Below the pieces are notes generated by a model, which was not told the origin of the DNA, did not search any database, and saw only the letters and a list, made by a program, of their open reading frames with translations. 64,000 bases of DNA from Candidatus Enterococcus myersii (GTDB lineage: Bacteria; Bacillota; Bacilli; Lactobacillales; Enterococcaceae): contig NZ_JAFLVT010000008.1 of assembly GCF_017316025.1 (NCBI RefSeq), forward strand, positions 124,001 to 188,000. The letters run 5' to 3'. Below, in pieces: positions 3,292 through 40,299 of the stretch; within the stretch, counting starts at the first letter, position 1, and each line of letters begins with the position of its first letter. Both the position numbers and the translations under genes were made by a program.

Positions 3292-4465
3292 AAACAAACC
3301 AGCAATTCGTTTTAAAGGATTTGAAAATGATTGGGAACAGCGTAAGTTGGAGGAAGTTGCGGAAAGATATGACAATTTGCGAGTTCCAATTACAGCATCT
3401 GAACGCGTTTTGGGAGATACACCATACTATGGTGCAAATGGTATTCAGGATTATATTGAAGGATTTACTCATGAGGGTGAGTTTATTTTAGTCGCAGAAG
3501 ATGGAGCAAACGATTTAAAAAATTATCCTGTTCAATATGTCAAGGGCAAAGTTTGGGTTAATAATCATGCCCACGTTTTACAAGGCTATAACGGTATAAC
3601 GGACAATAAATTTTTAATGAATGCTATCAAAAATATCAATATTGAACCATTTTTAGTCGGTGGAGGACGTGCAAAATTAAATGCGGATGTAATGATGAAA
3701 TTAAGCCTTCGCTTACCTTCATTTGAAGAACAACAAAAAATTGGCACCTTCTTCAAACAACTCGACGACACCATCGCTCTTCATCAGCAACAATTAGAAA
3801 ATTTGAAAAAAACTAAAAAAGCTTACTTACAAAAAATGTTTCCGAAAAACAATGAAAAAGTTCCTGAAATAAGATTTGAAGGATTTGCTGACGATTGGGA
3901 ACAGCGTAAGTTGGGGGAAGTGACTAATTTGATAACAAAAGGAACAACCCCAAAAGATAAATCGTGGGCTGGAAGTGTTAACTATGTTAAGACTGAGAGC
4001 ATTGATTCTATCTCTGGATATATTAATGTAACAGCTAATATAAGTCTAGAAGAACATAACGGATATTTAAAACGTTCACAACTTAAAACCGATGATTTAC
4101 TTTTCTCTATCGTAGGAACGTTAGGACGTGTAGGCGTAGTAAGGGATATGGACCTTCCCGCAAATACAAATCAACAAATTGCAGTTATTCGATTAAGCAA
4201 TATAGTGAATAATCGATTTATTTTCCACTCTTTAAAAACATCAAAAATTTCAGCATTTATAAAGAGCGATGCCACAATTGGTGCACAACCATCGTTATCA
4301 TTATGGCAAATTAATGAATTGAATATTCCATACACAGATATAACAGAACAAGTTAAGGTTGGTAAATTTCTAGATATATTAGACAACACTATCGCTCTTC
4401 ATCAGCGTAAACTTGATTATTTGAAAGAAATGAAAAAAGGATTATTACAAAAAATGTTTGTATAG
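3284..4465 (+). CDS. hsdS: Type I restriction enzyme specificity subunit HsdS (expressed copy)
   Basis: Specificity subunit with two target recognition domains (TRDs) and two conserved repeats. Each TRD begins with a near-identical NDWEQRKL or DDWEQRKL segment (about residues 14 and 203), and each is followed by a helical spacer containing DDTIALHQ or DNTIALHQ. ATG 3284 has SD AAGGTGG 9 bp upstream and overlaps the hsdM stop, so I prefer it to the GTG at 3272; it gives 393 residues. The DNA encoding the WEQRK segment recurs inverted in the half gene at 5431-6000, and a recombinase lies between them. The gene can therefore probably exchange a TRD by inversion. The stop codon is embedded in a terminator hairpin. 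Confidence 0.93.
   Translation: MPENKPAIRFKGFENDWEQRKLEEVAERYDNLRVPITASERVLGDTPYYGANGIQDYIEGFTHEGEFILVAEDGANDLKNYPVQYVKGKVWVNNHAHVLQGYNGITDNKFLMNAIKNINIEPFLVGGGRAKLNADVMMKLSLRLPSFEEQQKIGTFFKQLDDTIALHQQQLENLKKTKKAYLQKMFPKNNEKVPEIRFEGFADDWEQRKLGEVTNLITKGTTPKDKSWAGSVNYVKTESIDSISGYINVTANISLEEHNGYLKRSQLKTDDLLFSIVGTLGRVGVVRDMDLPANTNQQIAVIRLSNIVNNRFIFHSLKTSKISAFIKSDATIGAQPSLSLWQINELNIPYTDITEQVKVGKFLDILDNTIALHQRKLDYLKEMKKGLLQKMFV
3326..3348 (+). repeat. hsdS inversion repeat, copy A (start of TRD1)
   Basis: 23 bp coding for NDWEQRKL (AATGATTGGGAACAGCGTAA plus GTT). It is identical and inverted relative to copy C at 5975-5997, and its last 20 bp also match copy B at 3893-3912 in direct orientation. 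It is a candidate crossover site for the adjacent tyrosine recombinase. Confidence 0.8.
3893..3912 (+). repeat. hsdS inversion repeat, copy B (start of TRD2)
   Basis: 20 bp GATTGGGAACAGCGTAAGTT, identical to the 3' part of copy A and inverted relative to copy C. Inversion between B and C would replace TRD2 by the TRD stored in the silent cassette and leave TRD1 in place. Confidence 0.8.
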
Positions 4466-4490
4466 AAGGTGCACTTTGCACCTTCTATTT
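4465..4490 (+). terminator. Terminator overlapping the hsdS stop codon
   Basis: Perfect 9 bp stem GAAGGTGCA / TGCACCTTC with a 3-nt loop, followed by TATTTTAT. The last G of the hsdS TAG is the first base of the stem. It separates hsdS from the convergent recombinase gene and may act in both directions. Confidence 0.7.
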
Positions 4491-5410
4491 TATATGCCAG
4501 CTAGATAGCGCATGATTTTATCGTTGTCTTGATTTTCAAGTTCTTGGATGATATGCAGATAAGTCTGTTGCGTTGTTGTCATGTTGGAGTGGCCAAGTCT
4601 TCTAGCAACGCTGGCAATTGAAACTCCCGCAAAAAGCAAAAGAGAAGCATGTGTATGACGTAGACCATGAATTGAAATTACAGGGATATTTGCACAGCAA
4701 CAATATTTTTTTAAACGATTATTAATCGTTGAATTATAAATACGGTTGTCAACAAAAATTGGCTTATCCGAAGGCAGTTGCGTAATAAGTTGAGCAAACT
4801 GCATCATTGTTTTCCAATCGACAGGAATTTTCCGCTTAGAAGAAAAATTTTTAGTATCTTGAAATCCACCACTTTGGCTTTTATAGTTCCACGTCTTTGT
4901 GACGGAAATCGTTTGGTAAGCAAAATCAAAGTCTGCCGGCGTTAATGCTAATGCCTCAGAAAAGCGCAAGCCGGTCTTGGCAATTAATAGAATTAGCCAA
5001 TCTTCATTGATATAGTCAGAAAGAGTTAAGGTATCAAGTAGTTTTTGTAAATCAAATTGGCTAATATATTTCATTTTCTTTTCTCGAGGAATTTTTCCTT
5101 TGATAACAACTTTTCTTGTGGGATCACTTGGCAATAATTGATCATCTAAAGCGTCGATAATAGCGCCCTTTAATTGATGGTGGAAATCCATCGTTGTTTG
5201 TTTTTCATGAGACAAAGCATATTGATTCATGATTTTTTGATAATTTTTCCGATCTAGTTCTGAAAGTTTCAAATGTGGTGAAATCTTTTTCAACCATTGG
5301 TAAGACATACGATATTTTGCCAAAGTAACGTCTCTCACTGCACCAACTTTGTACAAATCAATCCATTCTGCATAGTATTCGTGAAACAAAACAGTCGATT
5401 CTTTGAACAT
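4490..5410 (-). CDS. Tyrosine recombinase, probable hsdS inversion enzyme
   Basis: Phage-integrase family site-specific recombinase, 306 residues. An N-terminal SAM-like DNA-binding domain (about 1-110) is followed by a catalytic domain with the family residues: Arg in TGLRFSEAL (about 170), HGLRHTHAS (His and second Arg, about 250), LGHSN (His, about 273) and the nucleophile Tyr in TYLHI (about 283). It appears intact. It lies between the expressed hsdS and an inverted half hsdS, as do the recombinases of switching type I loci in streptococci, so TRD inversion is its most likely job. No phage genes are nearby. An integrase left from another mobile element is the alternative. Confidence 0.9.
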   Translation of the reverse strand: MFKESTVLFHEYYAEWIDLYKVGAVRDVTLAKYRMSYQWLKKISPHLKLSELDRKNYQKIMNQYALSHEKQTTMDFHHQLKGAIIDALDDQLLPSDPTRKVVIKGKIPREKKMKYISQFDLQKLLDTLTLSDYINEDWLILLIAKTGLRFSEALALTPADFDFAYQTISVTKTWNYKSQSGGFQDTKNFSSKRKIPVDWKTMMQFAQLITQLPSDKPIFVDNRIYNSTINNRLKKYCCCANIPVISIHGLRHTHASLLLFAGVSIASVARRLGHSNMTTTQQTYLHIIQELENQDNDKIMRYLAGI

Positions 5411-5430
5411 AACAAACGCCTCCTTAAAAT

Positions 5431-6000
5431 TTATGTATATAAATCAAATTTTCCAATTCGCTGATGAAGGGTGATGGTATTGTCCAGAATTTTAAAAAAA
5501 TCCCCTAATCGTTTCTGTTCTTGTTTACTTGGGACCAAAATGTCCCAATTCTTTACCTCTGACATAGGTACCAAATTGTTAATTGCAGACCCTGGATTAG
5601 CACCTGTAAGTTTTCTTTGCATGTTATCCGCCCGAACAAATTGAATAAAGTATTCTGAGTCCGTAACTTCATTATTAATCTTAAATCGTATAAGCGCTTG
5701 ATTAAACACTCCTTGTTTAATTCCAACTGGGACACGTGAGATTCTTCCAATCGTACCAGCCCCGCTCATAATGAAATCTCCTTCTTCCAATGAGAACTTA
5801 CTTAACTCTTCAAATTTGGATTGGGGTATGTTATATCGAGTTTTATAATTATCATAAATCGCATTTTGCTGTTCATAGACAACATAATCACTTTTAGAAA
5901 CAAATATCTCTTTTTTTAGGGCGCTTCCAAATGGCCCACGGCGAACTCCATCCTTCTTATCTAATAAATCTTCAAACTTACGCTGTTCCCAATCATTCAT
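5431..6000 (-). CDS. Silent half-length hsdS cassette (one TRD)
   Basis: Partial HsdS of 189 residues in the opposite orientation to hsdS. It begins MNDWEQRKFEDLLDKK, holds one TRD unlike either TRD of hsdS, and ends with the conserved spacer FFKILDNTITLHQR followed by IGKFDLYT, so the second half of the normal C-terminal helix is missing. No good ribosome binding site precedes the ATG, which suggests it is a storage cassette. Its first codons contain the 23 bp repeat inverted relative to hsdS. After inversion at copies B and C, hsdS would encode TRD1 plus this TRD as a nearly full-length subunit. Confidence 0.85.
   Translation of the reverse strand: MNDWEQRKFEDLLDKKDGVRRGPFGSALKKEIFVSKSDYVVYEQQNAIYDNYKTRYNIPQSKFEELSKFSLEEGDFIMSGAGTIGRISRVPVGIKQGVFNQALIRFKINNEVTDSEYFIQFVRADNMQRKLTGANPGSAINNLVPMSEVKNWDILVPSKQEQKRLGDFFKILDNTITLHQRIGKFDLYT
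5975..5997 (-). repeat. hsdS inversion repeat, copy C (silent cassette)
   Basis: Exact reverse complement of copy A (3326-3348), located at the start of the silent TRD. With copy A or B it bounds a segment of about 2.67 or 2.1 kb that includes the recombinase gene. Confidence 0.8.
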
Positions 6001-6041
6001 TACCCTAATTTCTATCCAATATTAAAAAATAACACTAAAAA

Positions 6042-6069
6042 TGATACCGCTTTTTTTATGTGGTATAAT
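6042..6069 (+). promoter_or_regulatory. Promoter of hsdR
   Basis: An extended -10, TGGTATAAT (6061-6069), with a possible -35 TGATAC at 6042 and a 16 bp spacer. It lies outside the invertible segment, so hsdR expression would not depend on the state of hsdS. Confidence 0.7.
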
Positions 6070-6099
6070 TTTTTTGAGTATATAAAGTGGGTGGAAATA

Positions 6100-9000
6100 A
6101 TGACAAAGTTTACTGGAGAGCAGATATTAGAAGATACATTGATTCAAAAATTAATCACAGGTGAATCACAGTGGGTTTATCGGGACGATTTACATACAGA
6201 ATCAGAATTGTGGGCGAATTTGCGGCAAAAATTGGAAATTAATAATCAAGATGTTCTAAAAGGCGTGCCGTTGACGACGCAAGAATTTCGTCAAATTCAA
6301 AATCAGTTGAGTTTCCCCAATTTTTACGAGGCGGCACGTTGGTTGGCTGGTGAAAATGGCGTGGCAAAGGTTCAAGTGCAACGAGAAGACGCGGCGCTTG
6401 GGACAATTCGTTTGCGAGTGATTAATCGCCAAGATGTGGCAGGGGGAATTTCTTCTTATGAGGTTATTAATCAATTCAAGTCAGAGAAGCGGAAAATGGA
6501 AGATCTTAATCGACGTTTTGATGTTACGTTATTGATTAACGGACTGCCAATGATCCATATTGAATTAAAAAATCGGCGCCATCCATATATGGACGCTTTT
6601 CGTCAAATAAAGAAATATGTTCGGGAAGGAAAATTTACAGGGATTTTTTCTTCTGTGCAGATGTTTGTGATTTCCAACGGGACAGATACACGTTATATTG
6701 CGAGTGCGCAAGATACAAAGTTAAATGAACAGTTTCTAACCAAGTGGGTGGATAAAGATAACAATCCAGTCAATGATTATTTGGAGTTCGCTGAAGAAGT
6801 GTTAGCAATTCCAATGGCTCACAAGATGGTGACGCAGTATACGGTAATTGACAGTGAGAAAAAAGCGCTGATTTTACTTCGGCCTTATCAGATTCATGCA
6901 ATTGAGGCAGTCAAAGTTGCTTCTAAGCAACATAAATCTGGTTATGTTTGGCATACAACCGGTTCTGGTAAAACATTGACTTCTTATAAAGTAGCGCGGA
7001 ATTTATTACAAATTCCATCTTTGAAGAAAACCATATTTATTATTGACCGCGTCGATTTGGATCAACAGACGACCTCTTCATTTACATCATACGCTGAAAA
7101 TGACACAATTGAAATTGATGGCACAGATAATGTGAAGGACTTAATTAAAAAGCTACTCTCAGATGAGCGCAATGTTTTGGTAACAACTATTCAAAAGCTA
7201 AATCATGTGATGAAACGTTTTTCTGGTAAGGAAGGGACAAAACGTTACGAGCAGATGACGCAGTTGAAGGTAGCTTTTGTAGTAGATGAATGCCATCGTG
7301 CAGTAAGTCCAGGTAAGAAAAAAGAAATTAGCGAATTTTTTGTTCAATCTCTTTGGTATGGTTTTACTGGCACACCGATTTTTAAAGAGAATGCAAAGAA
7401 AGAACAAGGAAATCTCCCCCGTACAACGCAGCAACTTTATGGGGAACGACTTCATGAATATACGGTTAAAGAGGCCATTCATGATCGTGCGGTTTTAGGC
7501 TTTCAGGTGGAATATAAGTCGACTTTTTCTGAAGAGGAATTGGATCGAACGATTATCCAATTAGCTGATGAAAATAAGTTAGATGTGGATGCCTTAGAGT
7601 TGGAAGAAAAAGAAGCAAAACTACCGAAATCGGTTTATTCAAATGAAGAACACATGTTAGCGGTAATTGACTCGATTTTGAACAAGTCACGAAACAAATT
7701 GGGTTTTCGAAATGGTTCAGGCAAGACCTGTAATGCAATTTTGACCACCTCGTCTATTTCTCAGGCGCAACGGTATTATGAACTTTTCCAGCTAGTGAAA
7801 CGTGGAGAAACAAGTATTACAATCGATGAAGCGACGAAGCGTACTTTGCCAGACTTTCCGAAAGTGGCGATTACCTATTCAATTTCAGAAAATGAGGAAG
7901 CTTCAATTACAAATCAAGAGAAAATGAAGGCTGCTCTAAAGGACTACAACAAAGAATTTAATACAGATTTTACGATTGAAACAATGCGAGCCTACAATCG
8001 TGAGGTTAATAATCGACTGGCACGAAAAAAAGAAGCCTACTTAGCACGATCAGAACAAATTGATTTAGTCATTGTGGTGGATCGGCTTTTAACTGGGTTT
8101 GATGCCCCCTGTTTATCGACCTTATTTATTGATCGGCCGCCAATGCAACCCCATGAGTTGATTCAAGCCTTTTCAAGAACGAACCGTCTCTTTGATAAAA
8201 ATAAAAAGTACGGTCAAATTGTAACGTTCCAAACACCGAAGACTTTTGAACAAAAAGTAAAAGAAGCCTTGGTTTTATATTCCAATGGTGGTGAAAATTA
8301 TGTATTAGCGCCTGATTGGGAAGAGGCGAAAGATAATTTCTTAAAAGCCTTAGAAAATTTACGTGAAGTTGCCAATCAGCCTAGTGCCATCCAAGTGGAT
8401 AATTTGAATGCTGCTGAGTTGAAGAAATTTGTAAAGGCGTATCAGAAATTTGATCGGACTTATGCAGCAATTCAAGTTTACACGGACTTTGAGCCAGAAC
8501 AAATCGGCACAGAGTTTCCCATTCAAGTAAGAGAAATTGAAGAGTATAACGGTAAATATGTGAATGCGATTGAAGAATTACGTGGAGGTGATGGTCCCGA
8601 GGTAGTTGATATCGATATTTTCTACGAATTAGCAACTGTCAAAACTGAAGAAATCAATTATGAGTATATCTTGCTGCTGATTCAAGCTTTCGTACCTAGT
8701 GGCGATGACGAATATGAACTAGTGGCAAAAGAAGATCAAAAGGCGACAGCAGAAGTAAATCGTTATATTGATGATTTAGCAAAAAACAACGAAAAACTTG
8801 CAAGTCTGATCCGTAAGTTGTGGCAAGATGTCATTTTGAACCCGGAAAACTATCGGGATCAAAATATTTCCAATATTTTGGAGAACATGATCCAAGACAA
8901 ACAATATCAGATGGTCAAAAATTTTTCAAAAAAATGGCAGGTTGACGAAAGTGATGCACGTTATCTGGTGGCAAACTATAATCCGAAGAAGCAACATCAA

Positions 9001-9153
9001 GTTGGCGAAAAAGAACTTGTCCGTCCTGAAAACTTTGAACGCTACAAATCAACCTCAGGACAAACATTATCAAGGATAAAATATCGCAAGCAAGTTCGCA
9101 GTGATTTTAATGAATTAATGGAAAAAGAAATTTTACCGTTACAAAAGCGGTAA
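6100..9153 (+). CDS. hsdR: Type I restriction enzyme, endonuclease/translocase subunit HsdR
   Basis: Motor and nuclease subunit, 1017 residues from ATG 6100. That start follows a GGGTGGA ribosome binding site and the promoter; the earlier in-frame ATG at 6058 lies within the promoter. The N-terminal nuclease domain has the D...ELK signature (DVTLLINGLP, then IHIELKN, about residue 165). The SF2 helicase core has Walker A HTTGSGKT (about 290), Walker B VVDECHR (about 400), GFTGTPI (about 420), LLTGFDAP (about 665) and QAFSRTNRL (about 690). The C-terminal helical region should dock onto HsdM2S. No disruption was seen, so the complex should be active. Confidence 0.95.
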   Translation: MTKFTGEQILEDTLIQKLITGESQWVYRDDLHTESELWANLRQKLEINNQDVLKGVPLTTQEFRQIQNQLSFPNFYEAARWLAGENGVAKVQVQREDAALGTIRLRVINRQDVAGGISSYEVINQFKSEKRKMEDLNRRFDVTLLINGLPMIHIELKNRRHPYMDAFRQIKKYVREGKFTGIFSSVQMFVISNGTDTRYIASAQDTKLNEQFLTKWVDKDNNPVNDYLEFAEEVLAIPMAHKMVTQYTVIDSEKKALILLRPYQIHAIEAVKVASKQHKSGYVWHTTGSGKTLTSYKVARNLLQIPSLKKTIFIIDRVDLDQQTTSSFTSYAENDTIEIDGTDNVKDLIKKLLSDERNVLVTTIQKLNHVMKRFSGKEGTKRYEQMTQLKVAFVVDECHRAVSPGKKKEISEFFVQSLWYGFTGTPIFKENAKKEQGNLPRTTQQLYGERLHEYTVKEAIHDRAVLGFQVEYKSTFSEEELDRTIIQLADENKLDVDALELEEKEAKLPKSVYSNEEHMLAVIDSILNKSRNKLGFRNGSGKTCNAILTTSSISQAQRYYELFQLVKRGETSITIDEATKRTLPDFPKVAITYSISENEEASITNQEKMKAALKDYNKEFNTDFTIETMRAYNREVNNRLARKKEAYLARSEQIDLVIVVDRLLTGFDAPCLSTLFIDRPPMQPHELIQAFSRTNRLFDKNKKYGQIVTFQTPKTFEQKVKEALVLYSNGGENYVLAPDWEEAKDNFLKALENLREVANQPSAIQVDNLNAAELKKFVKAYQKFDRTYAAIQVYTDFEPEQIGTEFPIQVREIEEYNGKYVNAIEELRGGDGPEVVDIDIFYELATVKTEEINYEYILLLIQAFVPSGDDEYELVAKEDQKATAEVNRYIDDLAKNNEKLASLIRKLWQDVILNPENYRDQNISNILENMIQDKQYQMVKNFSKKWQVDESDARYLVANYNPKKQHQVGEKELVRPENFERYKSTSGQTLSRIKYRKQVRSDFNELMEKEILPLQKR

Positions 9154-9281: not shown

Positions 9282-10221
9282 GTGAACTGGCAAGCGTTGT
9301 TTGAACCACAAATTTTATTTCGTGGTGAAGAATTATTTGAAGAAGATAAAGTAATTTCTTTTGAAATAAAGGGTAGTGAGATTTTTGCTGAGGTAGAAAG
9401 TTCTGCTAGTGATGGCTACTACGAAGTTTATCTTCGTTTGGATCAGACAAAGCAGAGTCTAGTAGCGATGACTTGTGATTGCCCCTACGCAGAATCTGGT
9501 CGGCACTGTAAGCACGTAGCGGCGACGGCCTTTTGTTTTTATGCGACAAATAAAAAAGAATACTTACAGCAAGCTTCTTATGAAGAAGTTTTGTCTTTAA
9601 TTCGTAATGTAGAGGGTAGTGAATTACGAGCATTTTTATTAGCTGAAATGGCTCACAATGTAGCGTTACAGGCGGCTTTTTTACAACGCTTTGGTAAAAA
9701 AATCGGCCTACAGGGAAGAATCAATTTGAATTTTACCGCGAGAAAGTGCAAGATATTTTTGATACGTATGCTGATTATGATGGTTTTATGGATTATGAAG
9801 TAACGGGTGAGTTTGAAGCTGATATGACTGATTATCTAGCAACAGAAGGGGAAAATTTGATTGCTAGTCGGAATTTTGCGGCGGCTTTTGAATTAGGGCA
9901 AGCTAGTTATGAATTATTGCACGAAATTGATATTGATGATTCTAATGGCGTGATGCTGACAATTCTGACTTATATCACTGAATTGTGGGAAGAAGTCATG
10001 GAATTTGCTACTGCTAAAGACATAGAGCCTTTTTTTATCTGGGCTACCCAACGATTAAATAACAAAGAAGACTTTTTTACAGAAGACTTAATTGCGGTTT
10101 TGACCAATTTAGGTGAAGAAAAATTGGAATTTGCTCCTAGAATTGTCAAATAAAAGAGGAATTACTGCAAAAATATCCTCGGCGTAGTGCCATGAAAGAT
10201 GAGCTGCGCCGTGTGTCATAA
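9282..10221 (+). pseudogene. SWIM zinc-finger protein gene broken by frameshifts
   Basis: The first part (GTG 9282, 8 nt after AGGAGG) contains a SWIM zinc-binding motif, CDCPYAESGRHCKH (about residue 66), seen in DNA/protein-binding SWIM proteins of Firmicutes. Coding continuity then moves frame at a run of seven A (9696-9702). One extra A would join it to the frame reading KVQDIFDTYADYDGFMDYE and continuing to 10153. A second shift near 10145 would join a short tail, LLQKYPRRSAMKDELRRVS, ending at 10221. Two single-base losses, or assembly errors in A runs, explain the three frames. The remainder is about 310 residues. The function of SWIM proteins here is unknown. Confidence 0.75.
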
Positions 10222-10236
10222 GAACCAATAAATAAA

Positions 10237-10309
10237 CCTCTAAACTAAACGTAGCAGAAAAAACGATTTTACCCCTCGTATTTTCTAACACATTTAGTTT
10301 AGAGGCTTT
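10237..10309. terminator. Long-loop inverted repeat, probable bidirectional terminator
   Basis: 13 bp perfect arms CCTCTAAACTAAA (10237-10249) and TTTAGTTTAGAGG (10293-10305) separated by 43 nt and followed by CTTTT. It lies between the convergent SWIM remnant and the importer operon. Confidence 0.55.
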
Positions 10310-10337
10310 TCATTCCAAACCAACGAATATCCCTGCT

Positions 10338-10365
10338 CTTTTGCGTAATAATTATTACGCAAAAG
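10338..10365. repeat. 28 bp perfect palindrome
   Basis: Each half reads CTTTTGCGTAATAA, with no central spacer. It is followed by a T-rich stretch and lies 130 bp downstream of the minus-strand operon end. It could be a terminator stem for that operon or a protein-binding site; the base composition alone does not decide. Confidence 0.8.
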
Positions 10366-10494
10366 TTCGCGCTAAAATTTTTTAAAAAGATTCTGCGTCA
10401 AAATTTCCGCCCAAATTTCCCAACAATATTTTCCAACGAAAATTCTGCAACAAAACACCGCAACGTCAAAATTTTCTGTCAAAAATAACTTCAC

Positions 10495-11325
10495 CTAAAA
10501 CACTTTCCGCAAGCAATCGGCTGCTAGATACTTCTGGTTTACTTCGCCTGTTTGCCACAAGAAATCTGCTAATAATTCAAAATCTTTAGCCGCATAATTG
10601 TGCTGTTCTTCAAATGTGAAGTGGCGCAAGTTTTCGGCGGCTTGTGGTGTATAGTGGGCAACTTTTATCGCTTGAGCGCACTTTTCAGTAGCTGATAGGG
10701 CGTTGAAGTCTTGGGCAGCGGCTTCTAAGGCACGGTGGAAATTGGCAACTGTTTCGCCATTGTTATCATAAAATTTACGATCAAAGCACCACATCACCAT
10801 ATTTTTGTCCGAATTTTTGGAGTGCCATAAAATTTCAGTATCGGGCTGACTTTTTAAGATGTCTGTGATAAATGGTTCGATGGCAACGAGGCCGTCAATT
10901 TTCCCATTTTGCAGCAGGTCCATCCGCTCGTAGGTGTTATCGACCCACACGATTTCAGGCTGGTTGAGGATATTTTTTAAATCATGAGCCATAAAAAAGG
11001 GAAACAGTCCTTTACGGGCGACCCCGATGCGCAGCCCTTTTTTAGGCGCGTCTTTTTTTACTAGCAGTTGAATGGTGCGGGTCAAATCAGTGGTGACGAC
11101 AGCGTCTTTTCCTTGCTGGCGGTAGTTAAAGTAAAAGGTTAAATCCCCCATCATAGCATCCACGTCACCGGCGACAAAACTGCTTTTTTGTGCGAATTGG
11201 AAGGTTTCGGCGATGGTTAAGTCAACGGGGACACCAAATTTTTCAAAGTAGCCGAGTTTATCGGCAAAAATTACAGGTAACACGAGGGGATTGATTTTAT
11301 TTTGAACCAAACGGATTTTTTCCAT
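10495..11325 (-). CDS. NMT1/THI5-like binding-fold protein without signal peptide
   Basis: 276 residues from ATG 11325; the longer upstream frame is rejected because the ATG overlaps the TAA of the UbiA gene by one base, a coupled start. The sequence resembles periplasmic-binding folds of the NMT1/THI5 and SsuA type: a start PLVLPVIFADKLGYFEKFGV, a middle GDVDAMMGDLTFYF, and the hinge-like IDGLVAIEPF. It has no signal peptide and no lipobox, so it should be cytoplasmic. It is the last gene of the importer/UbiA operon. It could bind or convert the imported compound, as the cytoplasmic binding-fold enzyme MqnA does in menaquinone synthesis. That comparison is analogy only. Confidence 0.65.
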   Translation of the reverse strand: MEKIRLVQNKINPLVLPVIFADKLGYFEKFGVPVDLTIAETFQFAQKSSFVAGDVDAMMGDLTFYFNYRQQGKDAVVTTDLTRTIQLLVKKDAPKKGLRIGVARKGLFPFFMAHDLKNILNQPEIVWVDNTYERMDLLQNGKIDGLVAIEPFITDILKSQPDTEILWHSKNSDKNMVMWCFDRKFYDNNGETVANFHRALEAAAQDFNALSATEKCAQAIKVAHYTPQAAENLRHFTFEEQHNYAAKDFELLADFLWQTGEVNQKYLAADCLRKVF

Positions 11326-12275
11326 TATAAGTACTTCCTTCCCATGATTTGGATGAAAAATAAAAGGCTCATCCAAGTGTTAAAGTGATAAATCAACAGT
11401 AAGGGGCGAGGGCCATATTCTTTGCCCATTTCAGGGTAAACGGCTGAGATTTTCCAATAGTCTTTGTACCAACGTTGCCAGCCTTGGCGGTAAAAAATCA
11501 AACAGCCGACTAAAAATTGCCAGCAGGGAATGGTTTGCGTTGCCAAAAGAATTACCCAACAGCTAAACAAGAGCAAAAATTCAGGTATCACAAGTAAAAT
11601 GGCATTGCGAAAACCGATGACGTGAGGCAATGTTACCCGCACGCCGCGATCTTTTTCGTAGTCGCCCACGTTATTGGTGGACATTAAAAAGACGGTTAAA
11701 ATCATGGGAATTACGCTATATACAAGTAGCTGCCAACTGCCACTGCCAATTTGCACCCTACCTGCTAAGTAACAAGCAAGGCCACCGACAAAAAAGCCAG
11801 AGACGATTTCTCCTACTGGGTAAAGCAGGTAAGGTTTTGGACCTAAGGAATACGTAATTGCCGCCAATAAACCAACTAATCCCCAAGCGAGCAGCCACAA
11901 ATCTTTGGTGAGAAAAACCAGCAGCAGACCACAACTGCCGCCAAGGGCAATCATGAGGAGTAAAACAAAGACAGCATCCAAAAATTTGGCATCGCCACGA
12001 ACCAAGCCCTCGCTCCCTTTGTGGTGGGTAAAGGTTGCTTCATTTTCTTCTTTGGCTAAATAAGCGCGCATTTCATTGGCGGTATTGGCGACAATATTAA
12101 AGCAAAAGCCGGCAATAAAAAATAAAATCATGTATAAAAAATGGATTTCTCCCGTTAAATATGCGCCAAAAAAGCTCCCGCTTAAAACCGGCAGTCCGGT
12201 GGCAAAGCCAGTCCGCACTTCCATGACAGTATAAGCACGTTTTGAAAAACCGTGTAAATAGGTTAGAACATTCAA
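11325..12275 (-). CDS. UbiA-family membrane prenyltransferase (MenA-like, divergent)
   Basis: 316 residues with about eight to nine hydrophobic segments, fitting the UbiA superfamily, whose members attach isoprenoid chains to aromatic acceptors in the membrane. The second Asp-rich motif is recognisable as NNVGDYEKDRG (about residue 202). The first motif region reads NTANEMRAYLAKEE (about 65) instead of the usual NDxxD, so metal/diphosphate binding may differ. Translation starts at TTG 12275, 9 nt after AGGAGG, and overlaps the permease stop by 4 nt. Position in an importer operon suggests that the imported compound, or something made from it, is prenylated. A DHNA prenyltransferase for demethylmenaquinone is the conventional alternative. 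Confidence 0.75.
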   Translation of the reverse strand: MNVLTYLHGFSKRAYTVMEVRTGFATGLPVLSGSFFGAYLTGEIHFLYMILFFIAGFCFNIVANTANEMRAYLAKEENEATFTHHKGSEGLVRGDAKFLDAVFVLLLMIALGGSCGLLLVFLTKDLWLLAWGLVGLLAAITYSLGPKPYLLYPVGEIVSGFFVGGLACYLAGRVQIGSGSWQLLVYSVIPMILTVFLMSTNNVGDYEKDRGVRVTLPHVIGFRNAILLVIPEFLLLFSCWVILLATQTIPCWQFLVGCLIFYRQGWQRWYKDYWKISAVYPEMGKEYGPRPLLLIYHFNTWMSLLFFIQIMGRKYL

Positions 12276-13090
12276 CTTTTGACACCTCCTGCCAAACTTT
12301 CATAAATATATTTTTGCAATGCTAAAAAGACCAGTAGCATCGGAATAATGCTTAAAATCACCAAGGCACAAATCACTTGCCAGTTGGTTTGATTAGGGCC
12401 CATAAAGCGGTAAAGGGCAGTAGCAACTGTCCCGTGCTCTGAACCAGGTAAATATAAAAAGGGAATATAAAAATCGTTGTAGATGCTAATCATTTTTAAA
12501 ACGATCACTGTGCCAGTGGCTGGCCGCAATAATGGAAATAAAATTTTGCGATAGATTTGAAAATAACTAGCCCCTTCTAACAGTGCCGCCTTATCTAATT
12601 CAACGGGGATTTTTTCATACATTTGCAAATAGACGTAAATCATGACAACATCTGCTCCCAAATAAATTACAACCGGGGCAATTAGGCGATCGTAAAAACC
12701 TAATGCGGTGATAATTTTGAAAGTAGAAATTTGGGAGACGACCATCGGGACCATCGAAATTAGAAAATAAGCCCCAATCACCAGCTTTTTAAAAGGAAAA
12801 TCAAACCGATTTAAAACATAAGCGACCATTGAGCCAATTAAAACACTGCCGCAGACACCGCAAAAAACTAAAATGAAGGTATTGATAAAGGCTTGGGGCA
12901 GATTGCCAGTGGTAAAAGCCAGCCGATAATTTTCAAAGTGCCACTGTGTTGGCGGGGTAATTCCGCGGGTGGCGTTAAATTCTTGGTAAGTTTTAAAGGA
13001 GCCAAAAAAAACAGTCAAAAGCGGATAGCAGCAAATAAACAGCCAGGCAATTAAAAAGAAATATTTACTAGTTTTGGCAATCATTCGCAT
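12272..13090 (-). CDS. CUT1-type ABC importer permease (MalG/UgpE-like)
   Basis: 272 residues with six predicted membrane segments and the inner-membrane permease EAA loop, seen as ELDKAALLEGASYFQIYRKI (about 160-180), which contacts the ATPase. It pairs with the permease encoded immediately upstream; the two genes abut. It resembles carbohydrate/polyol importers of the MalFG/UgpAE type, but the operon has no sugar-metabolism gene, so the substrate is open. ATG 13090 follows an AGGAGG-like site; ATG 13084 is also possible. Confidence 0.85.
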   Translation of the reverse strand: MRMIAKTSKYFFLIAWLFICCYPLLTVFFGSFKTYQEFNATRGITPPTQWHFENYRLAFTTGNLPQAFINTFILVFCGVCGSVLIGSMVAYVLNRFDFPFKKLVIGAYFLISMVPMVVSQISTFKIITALGFYDRLIAPVVIYLGADVVMIYVYLQMYEKIPVELDKAALLEGASYFQIYRKILFPLLRPATGTVIVLKMISIYNDFYIPFLYLPGSEHGTVATALYRFMGPNQTNWQVICALVILSIIPMLLVFLALQKYIYESLAGGVKS

Positions 13091-13963
13091 TTATTTCTCC
13101 TCCTTTTGAAAGCGTTGCTGGGCTAAACTTAAGAAAATCACAATGAAAGACATTAAAACTGCTAGACTAGAGCCTAGGCCGACTAATTTTTGATCAAAGG
13201 CGACTTTTATTGTTTGGACTAAAAAAGTCGCGGTTCCATTGGCACCATTGGTCATAATCAAGGGGATTTCAAAGGCGGAAACAGCCCCAATGGTGAGTAA
13301 AATAAAGTTCAATTTTAAAACGGTGCGAATGTTTGGCAAAATAATATAGCGGGTTTGTTGCCATAAATTGGCGCCTTCTAAACTAGCAGCTTTTTGATAC
13401 ACTTTAGGCAGACCTTGAATGGCGGCAAAATACAGTAAAAAACTCGTGCCTAAATGGCGCCATAAGGAAATAAAAGCTAATGTATAATTGGCCACCGCCG
13501 GATCCCCCAGCCATAAGCGAATAAATTTGCCTAAATGTAAAAACTGCAAAAGCTGGTCAAATGAGCCGTCTGGTTCAAAGAACAGGCGGAAAATCAAAGA
13601 AGTGGCCACACCACTGATCATAATGGGAAAAACAATCACAGCCTTAAAAATATTTTTGCCGTAGGTTTTTGTCGACAATAAAATGGCTAAAGCTAAGGCT
13701 ATCATGATTTGTAGAAGACCAGAACCTAAGTAAAAGAGATTGGTTTTAAAGGCCTGAAAATAAACCGGGTCCTGCCAAATGGTGATATAGTTTTTAAAGC
13801 CGACAAAGTTTTTTTCAACTGAAAGTCCGTCCCAATCGGTAAAGCTATTGTAAATTAACGTTCCAATCGGCAAGAGGCCAAAAATTAGTAACAATAAAAG
13901 CGGTAAAGAGAGAAAAAGCAGAATGGTCTGCTTTTCCTCTCTTTTTAGGCTGCGCTTATTCAT
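13091..13963 (-). CDS. CUT1-type ABC importer permease (MalF/UgpA-like)
   Basis: 290 residues, six predicted membrane segments, with the EAA-type loop VYQKAASLEGANLWQQTRYI (about 205-225). The first segment follows a charged start, MNKRSLKREEKQ. Its start overlaps the end of the binding-protein gene by 8 nt. Together with the next permease it forms the membrane channel of the importer. Confidence 0.85.
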   Translation of the reverse strand: MNKRSLKREEKQTILLFLSLPLLLLLIFGLLPIGTLIYNSFTDWDGLSVEKNFVGFKNYITIWQDPVYFQAFKTNLFYLGSGLLQIMIALALAILLSTKTYGKNIFKAVIVFPIMISGVATSLIFRLFFEPDGSFDQLLQFLHLGKFIRLWLGDPAVANYTLAFISLWRHLGTSFLLYFAAIQGLPKVYQKAASLEGANLWQQTRYIILPNIRTVLKLNFILLTIGAVSAFEIPLIMTNGANGTATFLVQTIKVAFDQKLVGLGSSLAVLMSFIVIFLSLAQQRFQKEEK

Positions 13964-15233
13964 GGGCTTTTGCTGCAGCCTCCCATTTTTTCTCTAGGCT
14001 TGCGACATAATCTTGATAGCTTTCATTTTGATCAGGGTATAATGCGATGTTTACAGTTTTTTGTAAAACATCTGTTAAGCGGCCAACACCGACTTCGTTT
14101 GCAATAGCGCTATATGTGGCTTCAATAGCAGGATCTGTTGCTGGGGCGGTTAAGATGACGTTGTTTTCTTTAATCGCTTTTTGCTGGCTTTCATTTAATT
14201 TGGCTTTAACAGGTGTCATGCCGCCCATATCTTTGGCAAAACCAGAAGCAGGATCAATGAAAAAGTCTAGGAAAGCTTTGGCAGCGACTTTATTTTTAGA
14301 ATTTTTGTTAATGCCAATCACAGAAGGTGCACCAAGAGCTAAGCTGGTTTTACCAGCTAATAAATGTGGAAATGGCATAATGTTGATGGTATCTTTGCTT
14401 AATTTTTTAATTGGGGCGACATCTTGGGAGCCACTCATTAGCATGGCGATTTTGCCATCAGCTAATTGTTGTTGTGCTTGTTGGGTTTCTAGGGTAACGG
14501 GATCTTTTTCAATTAAACCAGCTTTTGCTAATTCGTAAATAACATCCATGACTTCCCGAATTGGTTGCCCGTCTTTAAAGGCAGTTTTACTTGTCACCAT
14601 TTCTTTTTTGAAGTCTTCACCACCATAAGAAGACAACGCACCTGCCCAAACAGCTAAACGTTGGTAATTGGTATAAAAGGCAATCGCACCAGTTTTTTCT
14701 TTAATCATTTTAGCGTCTGCGATTAATTCATCGGTTGATTGGGGTAATTTATCAATGCCGGCTTTTTTGAAAACTGCTTCATTGTAAACTAAACCCAATG
14801 AGTTTAAAACAGTCGGCAAGCCGTATACTTTGCCGTCGTAATCGGCTTCAGTGATGTCCAGATAATCTTTTTCCATCGCTTTTGTTGTGCCTAGCTCTTC
14901 AAAGTATTTACTGTAATCTTGTGGTTTGCCTGCCATTGAAAAAGGCACAAAAACAACGTCACCATAGTCTTTGGTGTTCATGCGATTGGCGATGTATTGA
15001 TCGTAATCAGTGCCAGCAGACTCCCATTTAATGTCTGTAATCTCAGGATATTTTTTCTTAAAATCTTTTTCCATTTGATCATAGAGTTTATCTGCATCTG
15101 TACGATTGGTGACAACGGTCAATTCACCACTGACTTTATCGTTTTCTTTTGTGTCTGCTTCTTTAGAATTGCCGCAGGCTGCTAAAAATAAAGTTGCCGC
15201 CGCTACTGCCATCCCTAAATAAATTTTCTTCAT
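13956..15233 (-). CDS. Extracellular solute-binding lipoprotein (family 1)
   Basis: 425 residues. Signal peptide with lipobox LAAC (Cys about residue 20), so it is anchored in the outer leaflet. The mature part has the SBP_bac_1 pattern, including TDADKLYDQMEKDFKKKYP near the start, the substrate-cleft segment YGLPTVLNSLGLVYNEAVF (about 135-155), and DGKIAMLMSGS (about 260). Such proteins deliver oligosaccharides, polyols, phosphodiesters or iron complexes to MalFG-type permeases. It is the second gene of the operon. The ligand is not predictable from what I can see. Confidence 0.85.
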   Translation of the reverse strand: MKKIYLGMAVAAATLFLAACGNSKEADTKENDKVSGELTVVTNRTDADKLYDQMEKDFKKKYPEITDIKWESAGTDYDQYIANRMNTKDYGDVVFVPFSMAGKPQDYSKYFEELGTTKAMEKDYLDITEADYDGKVYGLPTVLNSLGLVYNEAVFKKAGIDKLPQSTDELIADAKMIKEKTGAIAFYTNYQRLAVWAGALSSYGGEDFKKEMVTSKTAFKDGQPIREVMDVIYELAKAGLIEKDPVTLETQQAQQQLADGKIAMLMSGSQDVAPIKKLSKDTINIMPFPHLLAGKTSLALGAPSVIGINKNSKNKVAAKAFLDFFIDPASGFAKDMGGMTPVKAKLNESQQKAIKENNVILTAPATDPAIEATYSAIANEVGVGRLTDVLQKTVNIALYPDQNESYQDYVASLEKKWEAAAKAHE

Positions 15234-15284
15234 GTTCTTTCCTCCAATAAAATAAAAATAAATAGCTGTTTGGTCAGCTAAAAT

Positions 15285-16319
15285 TTACAAATCAAAAAAG
15301 AGTAGTTTGCTGGTATCAAAAGTAAAATGAACGCGTTGGCCCATTAAATTGCTGGTATCCTGGTATGTTTTGACTGAAAGTATGCTATCTTGCCACGCAA
15401 GCTGTAAAATACTGCTGCCCCCATAATACCGAATTTCTGTGACGACCCCTATTTCTAAAGGAGCTGTAAATTCACCATCTTTGTGTGAAATTTCACGAAT
15501 ATGAAGATACTCACTGCGAATGGCGACTAATTTTTTTGACTCCTGGGGAAATTGCTGCTGCAATTTTTGCGGCAATTTACTAAAAGGAAATAAATTAATC
15601 GCAGGGCGGCCAATAAATTCTGCCACAAAACGGTTCTGGGGTTTTTCATAAACTTCGTGGGGTGTACCAACTTGTTGGATAAGGCCGTCTTTTAAAACAA
15701 TGATACGATCGGCTAATGACATGGCCTCTTCTTGGGAATGGGTGACAAACAAAGTCGTCGCCTGTAATTTTTTATGGGTAGCTAAAATTAAATCCCCCAC
15801 TTGATCTTGTAATTTGGCATCTAAATTGGATAAAGGTTCGTCCATTAAAAATAGCTTGGGGTTACGCACGATTGCCCGCGCTAAGGAAACCCGCTGTCTT
15901 TGTCCCCCAGATAAGTTTTTGGGCAAAACATTTACTACCTCTGTCAAACCTAACTCTTTTGTTACCCAGTCTAATTTTTCTTGTCGTTCTTTTTTTGCTG
16001 TTTTTCGAATTTTCATGCCAAAAGTAATGTTTTCTGCCACCGTCATGTGGGGAAATAAGGCATACTCTTGAAAGACTAACGCCATATCGCGGTCTTTAGG
16101 TGCCAATTTTGTAATTTCTTGGTCAGCTAAAGTGATTTGCCCGCTACTGGGTTCTTCAAAACCGGTCAAAATATTTAAAAGCGTCGATTTTCCACTACCG
16201 CTGGGTCCAACGATGGCAATGAATTCACCTTTTGCCACATCTAAAGAAAAATCTTGCAGCGCTTTTGTCTTTTTATGGGGATAAAGCTTGCTGATATTTT
16301 GGATTGATAAATAACTCAC
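15285..16319 (-). CDS. ABC importer ATPase (MalK/PotA-like)
   Basis: 344 residues. Walker A GPSGSGKST (about 38), Q-loop FQEYALFPHMT, signature LSGGQRQRVSLARA (about 135), Walker B LFLMDEPLSNLD, switch His in FVTHSQEEA, and a C-terminal TOBE-like domain (about 240-344). It powers the importer encoded downstream on the same strand. ATG 16319 follows an AGGAGGTT-type site. It is the first gene of the operon. Confidence 0.9.
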   Translation of the reverse strand: MSYLSIQNISKLYPHKKTKALQDFSLDVAKGEFIAIVGPSGSGKSTLLNILTGFEEPSSGQITLADQEITKLAPKDRDMALVFQEYALFPHMTVAENITFGMKIRKTAKKERQEKLDWVTKELGLTEVVNVLPKNLSGGQRQRVSLARAIVRNPKLFLMDEPLSNLDAKLQDQVGDLILATHKKLQATTLFVTHSQEEAMSLADRIIVLKDGLIQQVGTPHEVYEKPQNRFVAEFIGRPAINLFPFSKLPQKLQQQFPQESKKLVAIRSEYLHIREISHKDGEFTAPLEIGVVTEIRYYGGSSILQLAWQDSILSVKTYQDTSNLMGQRVHFTFDTSKLLFFDL

Positions 16320-16839
16320 AGCACAACCTCCTGTTAGCTGAAATTCGCCTCACCAAGCTTACACTTTTTTTGTTTATGCGTCAAAATACGACAAGCAAAA
16401 TAAAATATGTATGAAAAAAAACTGAGAAAAAATAAAAATATATTGTCATTTTATTGCGTAATTATTTGTAGCGAAGAATTTAATGAGTAAAAACATGCTA
16501 CACCAATAATAATTGCGGGGCACTAAAATGAGTAGCTTTGAGGAGTAGCTTTTTAGTAAGAAACGGAAATTTTCAATAATTTTTGCGCAAATCACAATCC
16601 AAAAGATGTTGGACTACACCTCAAGTTTCAAGAAGTTTTCACTTATAGCCAAAGAAGCTCCTTTTAGCACAGCATTTATACGCAAATAGGAATTTCAGAC
16701 AAATGAATGTCCCAGCACTTTATCTGCTAACCATTCGCCGAATTCTTACAACCTTTTTTTACAAAGTTTTCCATGTTAAGATGAGTGACAAGAGAAGCTG
16801 AATCAAAAGCCGTAAAAAGTAGCGAGAAGAGGATTATAC
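16320..16839. other. 520 bp intergenic region between the divergent importer operon and recQ
   Basis: AT-rich and with no convincing ORF. Promoters for both directions must lie here, but I could not pick a clear -35/-10 pair. Confidence 0.4.
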
Positions 16840-18585
16840 GTGGATGTTTTAACACAATTATTAAAAGAAAAATTTGGCTATGAAAGTTTTCGCGCAGGTC
16901 AATTGGAGTTAATTCAAAAAGTTTTGAAAAACGAAAATGTGCTGGGAATTATGCCAACTGGTGGCGGCAAATCCATTTGCTATCAGCTGCCGGCTCTTTT
17001 ATTAGATGGCTTGACTTTAGTTGTGTCTCCTTTAATTTCTTTAATGAAAGACCAAGTGGATGCATTAAATGAAATGGGAATTGCGGCAACTTTTGTCAAC
17101 AGCAGTCTGTCACAAGAAGAAGTGAGTGTGCGGCTAAAAGATGCTGCTTACGGAAAATATAAATTGGTTTATGTGGCACCGGAACGATTTGAGATGTTTT
17201 CTTTTAAGCAATTGTTGCAACAAGAAAAAATCAGCCTCATTGCAGTGGACGAAGCCCATTGTATTTCCCAATGGGGGCACGATTTTCGCCCCAGCTATTT
17301 GCAGTTAGCAAAAGAGATTAAAGCATTGCCTCAAAGGCCGGCAGTTATTGCGCTAACGGCTACGGCAACGCCCCAAGTTGCGGCAGATATTGAAAACAGT
17401 TTAGAAATTCCAGCTAACAATAAAGTACAAACCGGCTTCGCGCGGGAAAACTTGGCTTTTCAAGTGGTAAAAGATGCCAAAGACAGCTATTTATTAGAAT
17501 ACTTACGGGTCAATGCCAATCAAGCGGGTATTATTTATGCCAGTACGCGAAAAGAAGTTGAGCGGGTGTATCACTTGTTGAAAAGCAAAAAAATTGCGGC
17601 CGGCTACTACCATGGCGGTTTAACAGAAGCAGCCCGCACTAGAGCACAAGAGGCTTTTTTATTTGATGAAATTAAAGTGATGGTAGCAACCAACGCTTTT
17701 GGCATGGGGATTAATAAAAGTAATGTCCGTTTTGTCATTCACGCGCAAACGCCGGGAAATATTGAATCTTATTATCAAGAAGCAGGACGTGCAGGGCGAG
17801 ACGGCTTACCCAGTGAAGCGATTTTGATGTATGCGCCCCAAGATTTACAGGTACAGCAATTTTTTATTGATAATTCCGATATGGAGATTGATTATAAGCA
17901 AAAAGAGTATTTGAAATTGCGGGAAATGAGTCAATATGCCCATACTGAAATGTGTCTACAGCGGTATATTTTACGCTATTTTGGCGAAGACGGTCCTGAG
18001 TGTGGACATTGTAGTAATTGCTTAGACGAACGGGCAGTTGAAGAGATTACCTTAGATGCGCAAAAAGTGTTGTCTTGTGTAAAGCGCATGGGAGAACGCT
18101 TTGGTAAAGCATTAGTTAGCAAAGTTTTGACCGGCTCAAAAGATCAAAAAATTACCCAATGGCATTTTGAAAAGTTATCCACCTATGGATTGATGAAAGA
18201 CTGGAGTCAAAAAGATGTCAGCCAATTGATCGACTTTCTAACGGCAGAAGGCTATTTAACGCCAACGGAGGGACAATTTCCTTTGCTAAAAATTTCAGCT
18301 ACAGGTAAAAATGTGTTGTTGGGTCAGCAAAAAGTGATGCGCAGAGCACAAGTAGTGAAAAAATTGGCACCAGATAATGAACTATTTGAAAAGCTGCGGC
18401 AATTACGTTTGGAATTAGCCTCAAAGCAAAATTTACCTCCTTATGTTATTTTTTCCGATAAAACTTTGTATGAATTAGCAGAAGTTCAGCCCCAAACTAC
18501 ATTAGAGATGTTGCAAATTAAAGGGGTGGGAGAAAATAAATTGGCGAAATATGGCGAAGCCTTTTTGGAAGTATTACAAAAATAA
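16840..18585 (+). CDS. recQ: ATP-dependent DNA helicase RecQ
   Basis: 3'-5' DNA helicase of recombination and fork repair, 581 residues (family usually 590-610). Motifs in order: FRAGQLELI (Q-motif, about 17), Walker A MPTGGGKS (about 45), DEAHCISQWGHDFRP (about 137), ALTATATP, then the RecQ motif VI QEAGRAGRDG (about 315). The Zn-binding cysteines of the RecQ-Ct domain are present (MCLQRYI, CGHCSNC, about 370-395). The C-terminal HRDC domain is recognisable from LFEKLRQLRLELA onward (about 510-575). Starts at GTG 16840; ATP sites look intact. Confidence 0.93.
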   Translation: MDVLTQLLKEKFGYESFRAGQLELIQKVLKNENVLGIMPTGGGKSICYQLPALLLDGLTLVVSPLISLMKDQVDALNEMGIAATFVNSSLSQEEVSVRLKDAAYGKYKLVYVAPERFEMFSFKQLLQQEKISLIAVDEAHCISQWGHDFRPSYLQLAKEIKALPQRPAVIALTATATPQVAADIENSLEIPANNKVQTGFARENLAFQVVKDAKDSYLLEYLRVNANQAGIIYASTRKEVERVYHLLKSKKIAAGYYHGGLTEAARTRAQEAFLFDEIKVMVATNAFGMGINKSNVRFVIHAQTPGNIESYYQEAGRAGRDGLPSEAILMYAPQDLQVQQFFIDNSDMEIDYKQKEYLKLREMSQYAHTEMCLQRYILRYFGEDGPECGHCSNCLDERAVEEITLDAQKVLSCVKRMGERFGKALVSKVLTGSKDQKITQWHFEKLSTYGLMKDWSQKDVSQLIDFLTAEGYLTPTEGQFPLLKISATGKNVLLGQQKVMRRAQVVKKLAPDNELFEKLRQLRLELASKQNLPPYVIFSDKTLYELAEVQPQTTLEMLQIKGVGENKLAKYGEAFLEVLQK

Positions 18586-36184: not shown

Positions 36185-36202
36185 AATGCTAGAATTAGCA
36201 TT
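36185..36202 (+). promoter_or_regulatory. Promoter and possible operator of the UgpC-type operon
   Basis: Extended -10 TGCTAGAAT (36187-36195). It is overlapped by a 7 bp inverted repeat AATGCTA / TAGCATT (36185-36191, 36196-36202), a plausible repressor site. No clear -35. Confidence 0.5.
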
Positions 36203-36233
36203 GCAGGTAAAAATAAAAAAGGGAGGATTTCCC

Positions 36234-37307: not shown

Positions 37308-38191
37308 TGTTTAAAAAAAATCATTATAATCCTGAAAATCAGCCGAAAGCATGGCTCTTCCTTCTGCCTTCGCTAATCGTCATTATGATTTTCAGCATTT
37401 ATCCATTGTTCCGTTCGCTCTTTATGAGTTTTCAAAAAGGGACGCTAATTAATCAAGAATATGCTGGGATTGAAAATTATCAAAAAGTTTTATCTGATCC
37501 GGTATTTTTTAAAGCCTTAAAAAATACCGCATTATATGCCTTTACCGTTGTTCCAATCGCATTAATTATCGGTCTTGCGATTGCCTGGATTATTTTTGAA
37601 AAAGTGAAACACAAAAGTTTCTTTGAAACGTTGTTTTTCATGCCTTATGTCACCAGTACGATTGCGATCGGGATTGTTTTTCGTTACTTTTTTAACGGCT
37701 CCTATGGGATTATCAATTTTCTTTTGAGTAAAGTTGGTATTCCAGCTATTAATTGGTTAGATGATGTGGACATGAGCATGACCACGTTGATTATCTTTGG
37801 TATTTGGACTAGCTTGGCGTTTAACATCATTATTTTATTAGCTGGATTACGGAATATTGATCCAGAACATTATAAAATTGCGAAGATGTTTGGGGCCAAA
37901 GATGGTGAAATTTTCCGCCGGATTACATTGCCGCAATTGGTTCCAACTATTGCCTTTTTGCTGACGGTTAATATTATTGGCGCTTTTAAAGTGTATACCC
38001 AAGTTTATGCATTGTTTGCCGGGCAGCCGGGGATTGCCAAAAGCGCGACGACCGCCGTTTATTATATTTACGATAAGTTCCACATTGCCGGTCGTCCCGG
38101 TATTGCCATGGCAGCGACTGTCATTTTATTCTTAGTTATTTTGTTCTGTACGTTTATCCAACGTCAAATCATGAAGAAAGTGGGGGAGTAG
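37307..38191 (+). CDS. ABC importer permease (UgpA/MalF-like)
   Basis: 294 residues, six membrane segments, EAA-type loop DPEHYKIAKMFGAKDGEIFR (about 185-204). Forms the channel with the following permease. Confidence 0.87.
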   Translation: MFKKNHYNPENQPKAWLFLLPSLIVIMIFSIYPLFRSLFMSFQKGTLINQEYAGIENYQKVLSDPVFFKALKNTALYAFTVVPIALIIGLAIAWIIFEKVKHKSFFETLFFMPYVTSTIAIGIVFRYFFNGSYGIINFLLSKVGIPAINWLDDVDMSMTTLIIFGIWTSLAFNIIILLAGLRNIDPEHYKIAKMFGAKDGEIFRRITLPQLVPTIAFLLTVNIIGAFKVYTQVYALFAGQPGIAKSATTAVYYIYDKFHIAGRPGIAMAATVILFLVILFCTFIQRQIMKKVGE

Positions 38192-38192
38192 C

Positions 38193-40296: not shown

Positions 40297-40299
40297 GAA

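Follow-up and report, generated by a model that had tools for sequence, protein, structure and literature searches.

A CUT1-type importer, a divergent UbiA-fold protein and an NMT1-like protein without a signal peptide are encoded by one conserved gene unit in Enterococcaceae and another Lactobacillales family

We analysed a 64,000-nucleotide (nt) stretch of the Candidatus Enterococcus myersii genome (hereafter the window; contig NZ_JAFLVT010000008.1, positions 124,001 to 188,000), in which six minus-strand genes at 10495-16319 encode a CUT1-type ATP-binding cassette (ABC) importer together with a UbiA-fold membrane protein and an NMT1/THI5-like protein that lacks a signal peptide. The importer, a UbiA-fold protein of a separate clade and the signal-less NMT1-like protein form a conserved gene unit: the order lipoprotein-permease-permease-UbiA-NMT1-like is kept in 15 genomes, which belong to Enterococcaceae and to a second family of Lactobacillales, labelled f8 and conceivably the Vagococcus family. 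Because the same order recurs in 15 genomes of two families and the ratio of nonsynonymous to synonymous substitution rates (dN/dS) is low, this conservation goes beyond chance. To our knowledge, no described system couples an ABC importer to a UbiA-fold protein, and a full-text literature search found no paper describing the set of importer, UbiA and NMT1-like genes, as the original prediction for this locus had supposed. For its function we tentatively prefer a model, possible rather than probable, in which a small and probably non-sugar molecule is imported, captured or converted in the cytosol, and transferred to or from a polyprenyl lipid.

All six open reading frames (ORFs) lie where the original prediction had placed them, and Pfam and NCBIfam agree with its family calls, the NMT1/THI5 similarity being below threshold. 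They are an ABC ATPase of the UgpC/MalK type (15285..16319; 344 amino acids [aa], GTG start), a solute-binding lipoprotein of the maltose-binding-protein type (13956..15233; 425 aa, with the lipobox LAAC recognised by reading), two BPD_transp_1 permeases (13091..13963, 290 aa; 12272..13090, 272 aa), the UbiA-fold protein (11325..12275; 316 aa, TTG start, assigned from Pfam UbiA and from fold matches) and the NMT1/THI5/SsuA-like protein (10495..11325; 276 aa, ATG start, cytosolic by prediction), so that every part of a CUT1 importer is present. The tight coupling that had been described holds for five of the genes, with overlaps of 8 nt (lipoprotein-permease), 4 nt (permease-UbiA) and 1 nt (UbiA-NMT1) and directly abutting permease genes (0 nt), but not for the ATPase gene, which is separated from the lipoprotein gene by 51 nt. 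This gap holds a minus-strand terminator-like hairpin with a T-rich tail (15263..15280), a consensus match only; the region holds 13 hairpins of this kind, where shuffled sequences gave 7.8. For the NMT1-like gene, the ATG at 11325, which gives the 276-aa product and the 1-nt overlap, was preferred over the TTG at 11376 of the longest ORF, and an ATG stands at this position in six of six Enterococcaceae relatives. A promoter scan gave 14 sites, against 13.9 in shuffles. On the 3' side of the cassette, an inverted repeat at 10234..10308 (33-nt arms, 82% complementary) is a candidate terminator. A perfect 28-bp palindrome with 14-nt arms also lies 3' of the cassette, at 10338-10365; within the window the 26-bp core has a single occurrence, against none in 100 shuffles, and the exact 19-base core pattern had no match in 141 loci.

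The five-gene order is identical in all 14 loci compared, which were the window and 13 others (L033-L038 and L081-L087), and the fifteenth genome, G043, of the window's own species, has it too. Among 105 Enterococcaceae genomes, close homologues of the NMT1-like protein (at least 55% identity) occur in eight: the window's own genome, G043, G044, G038 and G040, and, in another genus, G085, G075 and G071. Close UbiA homologues (at least 66%) mark the same eight. A further 18 genomes of the family gave NMT1-like matches at 21-30% only, and the eight that were read out of 22 weak matches look like ordinary secreted binding proteins in other operons. Across 395 genomes of the order, an NMT1-like profile recovered the cassette in seven f8 genomes as well, plus one weak match; the UbiA, NMT1-like and lipoprotein products of f8 share 45-63% identity with those of the window. 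A UbiA query over 29 f8 genomes found a close UbiA in eight, namely the seven cassette genomes and G145. In the order searches, which scored the best four and the best six candidates per genome, a close lipoprotein (at least 53%) and a close NMT1-like protein mark the identical 14 genomes, the two 395-genome samples being assumed to be the same; the next-nearest lipoproteins reach 37% at most. Thus the gene-neighbourhood comparison suggested with the original prediction finds the UbiA and NMT1-like families beside the importer in 15 of the 16 carriers of this UbiA, where relatives in which they are never linked had been named as evidence against it; only G145 departs from the linkage in part, as discussed below.

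Of the 14 loci, 10 have a permease-UbiA overlap of 4 nt and two an overlap of 1 nt. In L087 a 20-nt gap appears with the start chosen by our script, while the longest ORF overlaps by 1 nt, and in L084 the UbiA gene is split. An ATPase gene adjoins the cassette in nine of the 14 full-set loci and was not found within the 19 kb fetched for each of the other five, all in f8 genus g29; the importers there would need an ATPase encoded elsewhere. In three g29 loci (L082, L086 and L087) the cassette lies close to a gene for a radical SAM/SPASM protein, confirmed for L087 with a hidden Markov model (HMM), and nearby genes were read as formylglycine-enzyme-like and TauE-like. A contig scan with two short peptide patterns, which would miss distant kin, matched only E. 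canintestini, E. dispar, E. sp. BWR-S5 and E. larvae. At class level, an NMT1-like profile (398 genomes, E <= 1e-12) returned two genomes of the window's own species and, near E 5e-14, four weak matches; the single one that was read looks like a common binding protein of the lipoprotein kind. A UbiA profile (319 genomes, E <= 1e-20) returned the window's species together with a single canonical protein of MenA type. The sampling of the class is thin, and it recovered none of the other known carriers. A mobile element was considered and rejected, with no plasmid match and no pattern match in viral contigs.

The UbiA-fold protein is unusual. It passes the Pfam UbiA cut-off (44.5 versus 34.2 bits), and a UbiA domain match at E <= 0.01 was obtained for 12 of 12 members tested. 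In contrast to five of five other UbiAs (from G000, G071 and G103, and two from G247), each of which passes at least one NCBIfam cut-off for prenyltransferases of 1,4-dihydroxy-2-naphthoate (DHNA), it misses these cut-offs widely (86.2 versus 289 and 77.8 versus 316 bits). We aligned 42 sequences, comprising 14 intact cassette copies, one piece and 27 other UbiAs of the same two families. Two Asp-rich motifs, NDxxDxxxD and DxxxD, characterise the superfamily (PMC7839719). The second is intact in all 14 cassette copies and in the piece (NNVGDYEKD in the window), whereas the central Asp of the first, present in 27 of 27 other UbiAs, is Ala in 14 of 14 intact cassette copies, which read N-E-(M/I)-R-A (N-E-M-R-A in the window). 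A canonical MenA-like protein of another family has NEYYDF at the first motif. The N-E start thus resembles MenA, and what is unusual is the change from Asp to Ala. The motif may also lie in another register, or one of E68, E76 and E77 may stand in for the Asp. In a tree the 14 cassette UbiAs form one clade (support 100/100) on the longest branch. Given the altered motif and the divergent clade, ordinary prenylation cannot be assumed for the membrane step that was originally proposed.

It is possible, then, that the protein does not catalyse at all but acts as a membrane partner, either polyprenyl-binding or regulatory, in which case the cassette would be an importer with an accessory membrane protein. 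The uniform loss of the Asp would fit such a role. So would the resemblance to UBIAD1, which heads the fold matches of the AlphaFold model (the others being DGGGP synthase and AfUbiA) and is the only hit of a profile search of solved chains (E 0.0076, positions 108-229, outside motif 1); UBIAD1 binds HMG-CoA reductase and inhibits its degradation (PMC9314443). However, the second motif and many other residues are invariant, and dN/dS is 0.03-0.12 in six of eight pairs (the other two are saturated), values that are rough because dS exceeds 1. Moreover, the unrelated ABBA-type prenyltransferase CloQ is active without an NDxxD motif (PMC7839719), and loss of the Asp is therefore no proof of inactivity. 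We consider a non-catalytic UbiA unlikely.

The best solved relatives of the lipoprotein are manno-oligosaccharide binders (BlMnBP1, E 3.2e-34), and the permeases likewise match sugar importers; the ligand originally proposed, an aromatic or quinone precursor, remains a guess. An oligosaccharide could thus be imported and the UbiA-fold protein could place the sugar on a polyprenyl lipid, giving a prenyl-linked glycolipid. The next-nearest lipoproteins adjoin genes for GH36, GH113, epimerase and ROK proteins (L114, L115 and L117, HMM-tested), and sugar-use genes, identified by reading, flank several cassette loci. The fold matches of the UbiA model also include, at E 0.17, the structure 8j8k, which we take to be a mycobacterial membrane phosphoribosyltransferase. 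The lipoprotein sequences speak against this. When lipoproteins from 10 of the 15 cassette copies were aligned with six proteins from the next-nearest loci (31-37% identity; six of 10 such loci were read), Trp and Tyr residues characteristic of the manno-oligosaccharide clade were gone in 10 of 10 cassette sequences: two clade Trp, near 46 and 192, fall in deletions, W250 is replaced by T, G or S, W270 (of GSW) by Q, Y297 by S, and Y304 by S, A or G. New aromatics, for example F98, Y150 and F186, have been gained. In a different protein, a glucan solute-binding protein, three Trp form the sugar platform (PMC13084667), and by analogy we infer that the lost aromatics make sugar contacts in the clade of the cassette lipoprotein. 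Because these residues are lost, an ordinary oligosaccharide looks unlikely, and the ligand has probably changed. In none of the 14 loci compared does the cassette itself include a gene for a glycoside hydrolase or a glycosyltransferase. The glycolipid alternative appears rather improbable.

The NMT1-like protein is harder to place. The window's copy scores below the Pfam gathering scores for NMT1 and NMT1_2 (15.4-16.9 bits versus 20.5 and 24.7); among 13 family members, NMT1_2 matches nine and NMT1 seven at E <= 0.1, the best relatives reaching E 4e-7, and SsuA_fam matches 13, also at permissive E-values. The lack of a signal peptide, noted in the original prediction, is borne out by reading of an alignment of 13 rows, in all of which the first residues align with the start of the fold. 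The 77 invariant columns (including N9, N12-P17, D61, T82-R83-T84, G106-L107-F108, W179-C180-F181, H197 and Y244) are the pattern that would be expected of a ligand or active site. The fold matches of its model include both binding proteins and enzymes (SsuA, Thi5, PqqT, ThiY and DszB), and Thi5 and DszB are non-secreted enzymes of the SsuA/ThiY fold. A search of solved chains gave no significant match to SsuA, ThiY, PqqT, Thi5 or DszB (Thi5, E 0.26), and the two matches below 0.01 were HEPN proteins, which we took as chance. The fold similarity to Thi5, an HMP synthase with a PLP/His/Fe active site, and to ThiY, with the weak NMT1/THI5 HMM matches, could suggest salvage of a pyrimidine precursor of thiamine by a Thi5- or ThiY-like protein. 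We rejected a thiamine pathway on finding no riboswitch: seven relative loci held no RNA family above its gathering score, and 10000-17000 of the window, judged by E-value, held three below-threshold matches only, all to eukaryotic families. Further, no thiamine gene was recognised by reading of the flanks, a single Cys (C180) is invariant in the 13 rows, and the CCCFC motif, presumably to be expected of a Thi5-type protein, does not occur. As the UbiA-fold protein would also be left unexplained, we regard thiamine salvage as very improbable.

A third possibility is quinone salvage, in which the importer would take up a precursor such as DHNA and the UbiA-fold protein would prenylate it for respiration or extracellular electron transfer (EET). 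Unidentified pathways of quinone uptake and modification are expected in L. plantarum (PMC10746273), and the best NCBIfam matches of the cassette UbiA are DHNA prenyltransferases. Gene content at first seems to agree. A menB above the cut-off is present in only four of the 16 carriers of this UbiA and absent in 12; in Enterococcaceae, 51 of 105 genomes have menB above the cut-off and 62 of 105 have cydA, but both are lacking in all eight carriers (the menB match of G071 stays under the cut-off). In genus g13, cydA is missing from three of 22 genomes, which are exactly the carriers. By Fisher tests that ignore kinship, the menB difference gave p 0.006 in Enterococcaceae, 0.43 in f8 (four of eight carriers versus 14 of 21 others) and 0.03 pooled, and that for cydA, in Enterococcaceae only, p 0.0005; however, a single event within a single clade could account for the g13 pattern. 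In genus g1, all 10 genomes lack menB and cydA, and the five non-carriers among them have one UbiA match each. The window's own genome carries an EET-like locus (L039) whose DHNA prenyltransferase exceeds the cut-off (419 versus 316 bits), where the cassette UbiA fails; an ApbE-like protein there falls below its cut-off, and the other EET names were assigned by reading. The carriers without menB and cydA in Enterococcaceae suggested that the cassette UbiA might replace MenA, an idea we dropped because all eight f8 carriers have further UbiA matches and four of the eight have menB; indeed, a further UbiA is found in 16 of 16 carrier genomes. The suggested feeding of respiration or EET is thus left without specific support, and G145 holds the UbiA without an NMT1-like gene. 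We judge quinone salvage improbable.

G145, a 1.53-Mb single-contig genome of the genus that holds L081 and L083, is the one carrier in which the UbiA stands alone. Its 325-aa UbiA at L131 shares 62% identity with the window's protein and is oriented divergently from genes for HMG-CoA synthase, thiolase and HMG-CoA reductase, and L081 and L083 have the full cassette beside genes of mevalonate type (names by reading). Most simply, the other cassette genes were lost from G145 and the UbiA was retained. Because it alone was retained, and beside mevalonate genes for its likely donor, the UbiA-fold protein may be the core step.

In the mechanism that we tentatively prefer, whose chemistry we infer, the lipoprotein would bind a small non-carbohydrate ligand, or an unusual one that does not stack on aromatics, and the importer would carry it into the cell. 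There the NMT1-like protein, with its putative SsuA/Thi5/DszB fold, could capture or convert it, and the UbiA-fold protein would join it to a polyprenyl chain in the membrane or remove it from one, using its intact second Asp motif and its remodelled first motif. For the lone UbiA of G145, the neighbouring mevalonate genes would make the likely donor. A more ambitious version, which seems unlikely to us, would have UbiA-fold enzymes of a new class that function in the absence of the first Asp motif, served by its own non-sugar importer and a cytosolic binding-fold enzyme, making a prenyl-lipid new to lactic acid bacteria and possibly a substitute quinone in species without menaquinone.

Several observations weigh against the preferred mechanism. 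First, beyond the kinship of the lipoprotein with manno-oligosaccharide binders, the aromatics Y187, Y190, W196 and W417, shared with its relatives, are kept in the cassette lipoproteins, and genes read as serving sugar use flank L036-L038, L083, L084 and L086. Second, without its Asp the UbiA-fold protein could be unable to ionise prenyl diphosphates, and in two of the 16 genomes (G043, L048, of the window's species; G159, L084) its gene is split into two reading frames, by error or decay. Third, the AlphaFold models of both proteins are weak, with a predicted local distance difference test (pLDDT) score of 62 for the UbiA-fold protein and a mean of 57 for the NMT1-like protein, probably because only five sequences were supplied for each. 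Finally, no importer or NMT1-like gene lies in the 19 kb around the UbiA of G145 and no NMT1-like match at E <= 0.001 occurs in its whole genome, so the acceptor of that UbiA need not come from an NMT1-like protein or, as far as was read, an importer.

Other loci of the window are mentioned for completeness. A type I restriction-modification region at 1669-9153, arranged as in phase-variable systems, comprises HsdM (1669-3291, domain match), a phage-integrase-family recombinase (4490-5410, domain match) flanked by two oppositely oriented specificity-like ORFs (3272-4465 and 5431-6000, by reading), and an ORF resembling an R subunit (6058-9153, by reading). A 539-aa ORF at 24401-26020 matches a histidyl-tRNA-synthetase-type domain and HisG; it seems to be a HisZ-HisG fusion that precedes histidinol dehydrogenase. 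A second importer-like operon at 36186-41586 combines two permease-sized ORFs with genes for an ABC ATPase, an SBP_bac_8 protein and a protein of metallo-beta-lactamase fold, and the 2141-aa product of 47934-54359, with several Cna_B and SpaA repeats, is probably a surface protein.

In summary, gene content and order establish a conserved cassette around a separate UbiA clade, with a putative import-and-modify role. Should the preferred mechanism be true, it would offer a genetic handle on bacterial uptake and prenylation of outside precursors, and the UbiA clade, which departs from the described metal motif, offers a natural means of probing how strongly catalysis by UbiA proteins relies on it. 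With MenA and the DmkA of EET loci, the cassette UbiA shares the fold, the second motif NNxxDxxxD and about 23-35% identity, and the N-E with which its motif 1 opens recurs in a MenA-like protein from a different family; it differs in its Ala for the motif 1 Asp, in scores far below the DHNA cut-offs and in its separate clade. UBIAD1, its only solved profile relative and top fold match, is eukaryotic and aligns outside motif 1. The likeness of the NMT1-like protein to SsuA, ThiY, PqqT, Thi5 and DszB consists of fold matches of a poor model, and the catalytic signatures of SsuA/Thi5/DszB-type proteins are, as we understand them, absent from it. Finally, the lipoprotein, the two permeases and the UgpC/MalK-type ATPase resemble CUT1 manno-oligosaccharide importers of the BlMnBP1 type, from which the cassette is set apart by the loss of the clade aromatics, by the absence of an internal glycoside hydrolase gene and by the UbiA and NMT1-like genes at its end.

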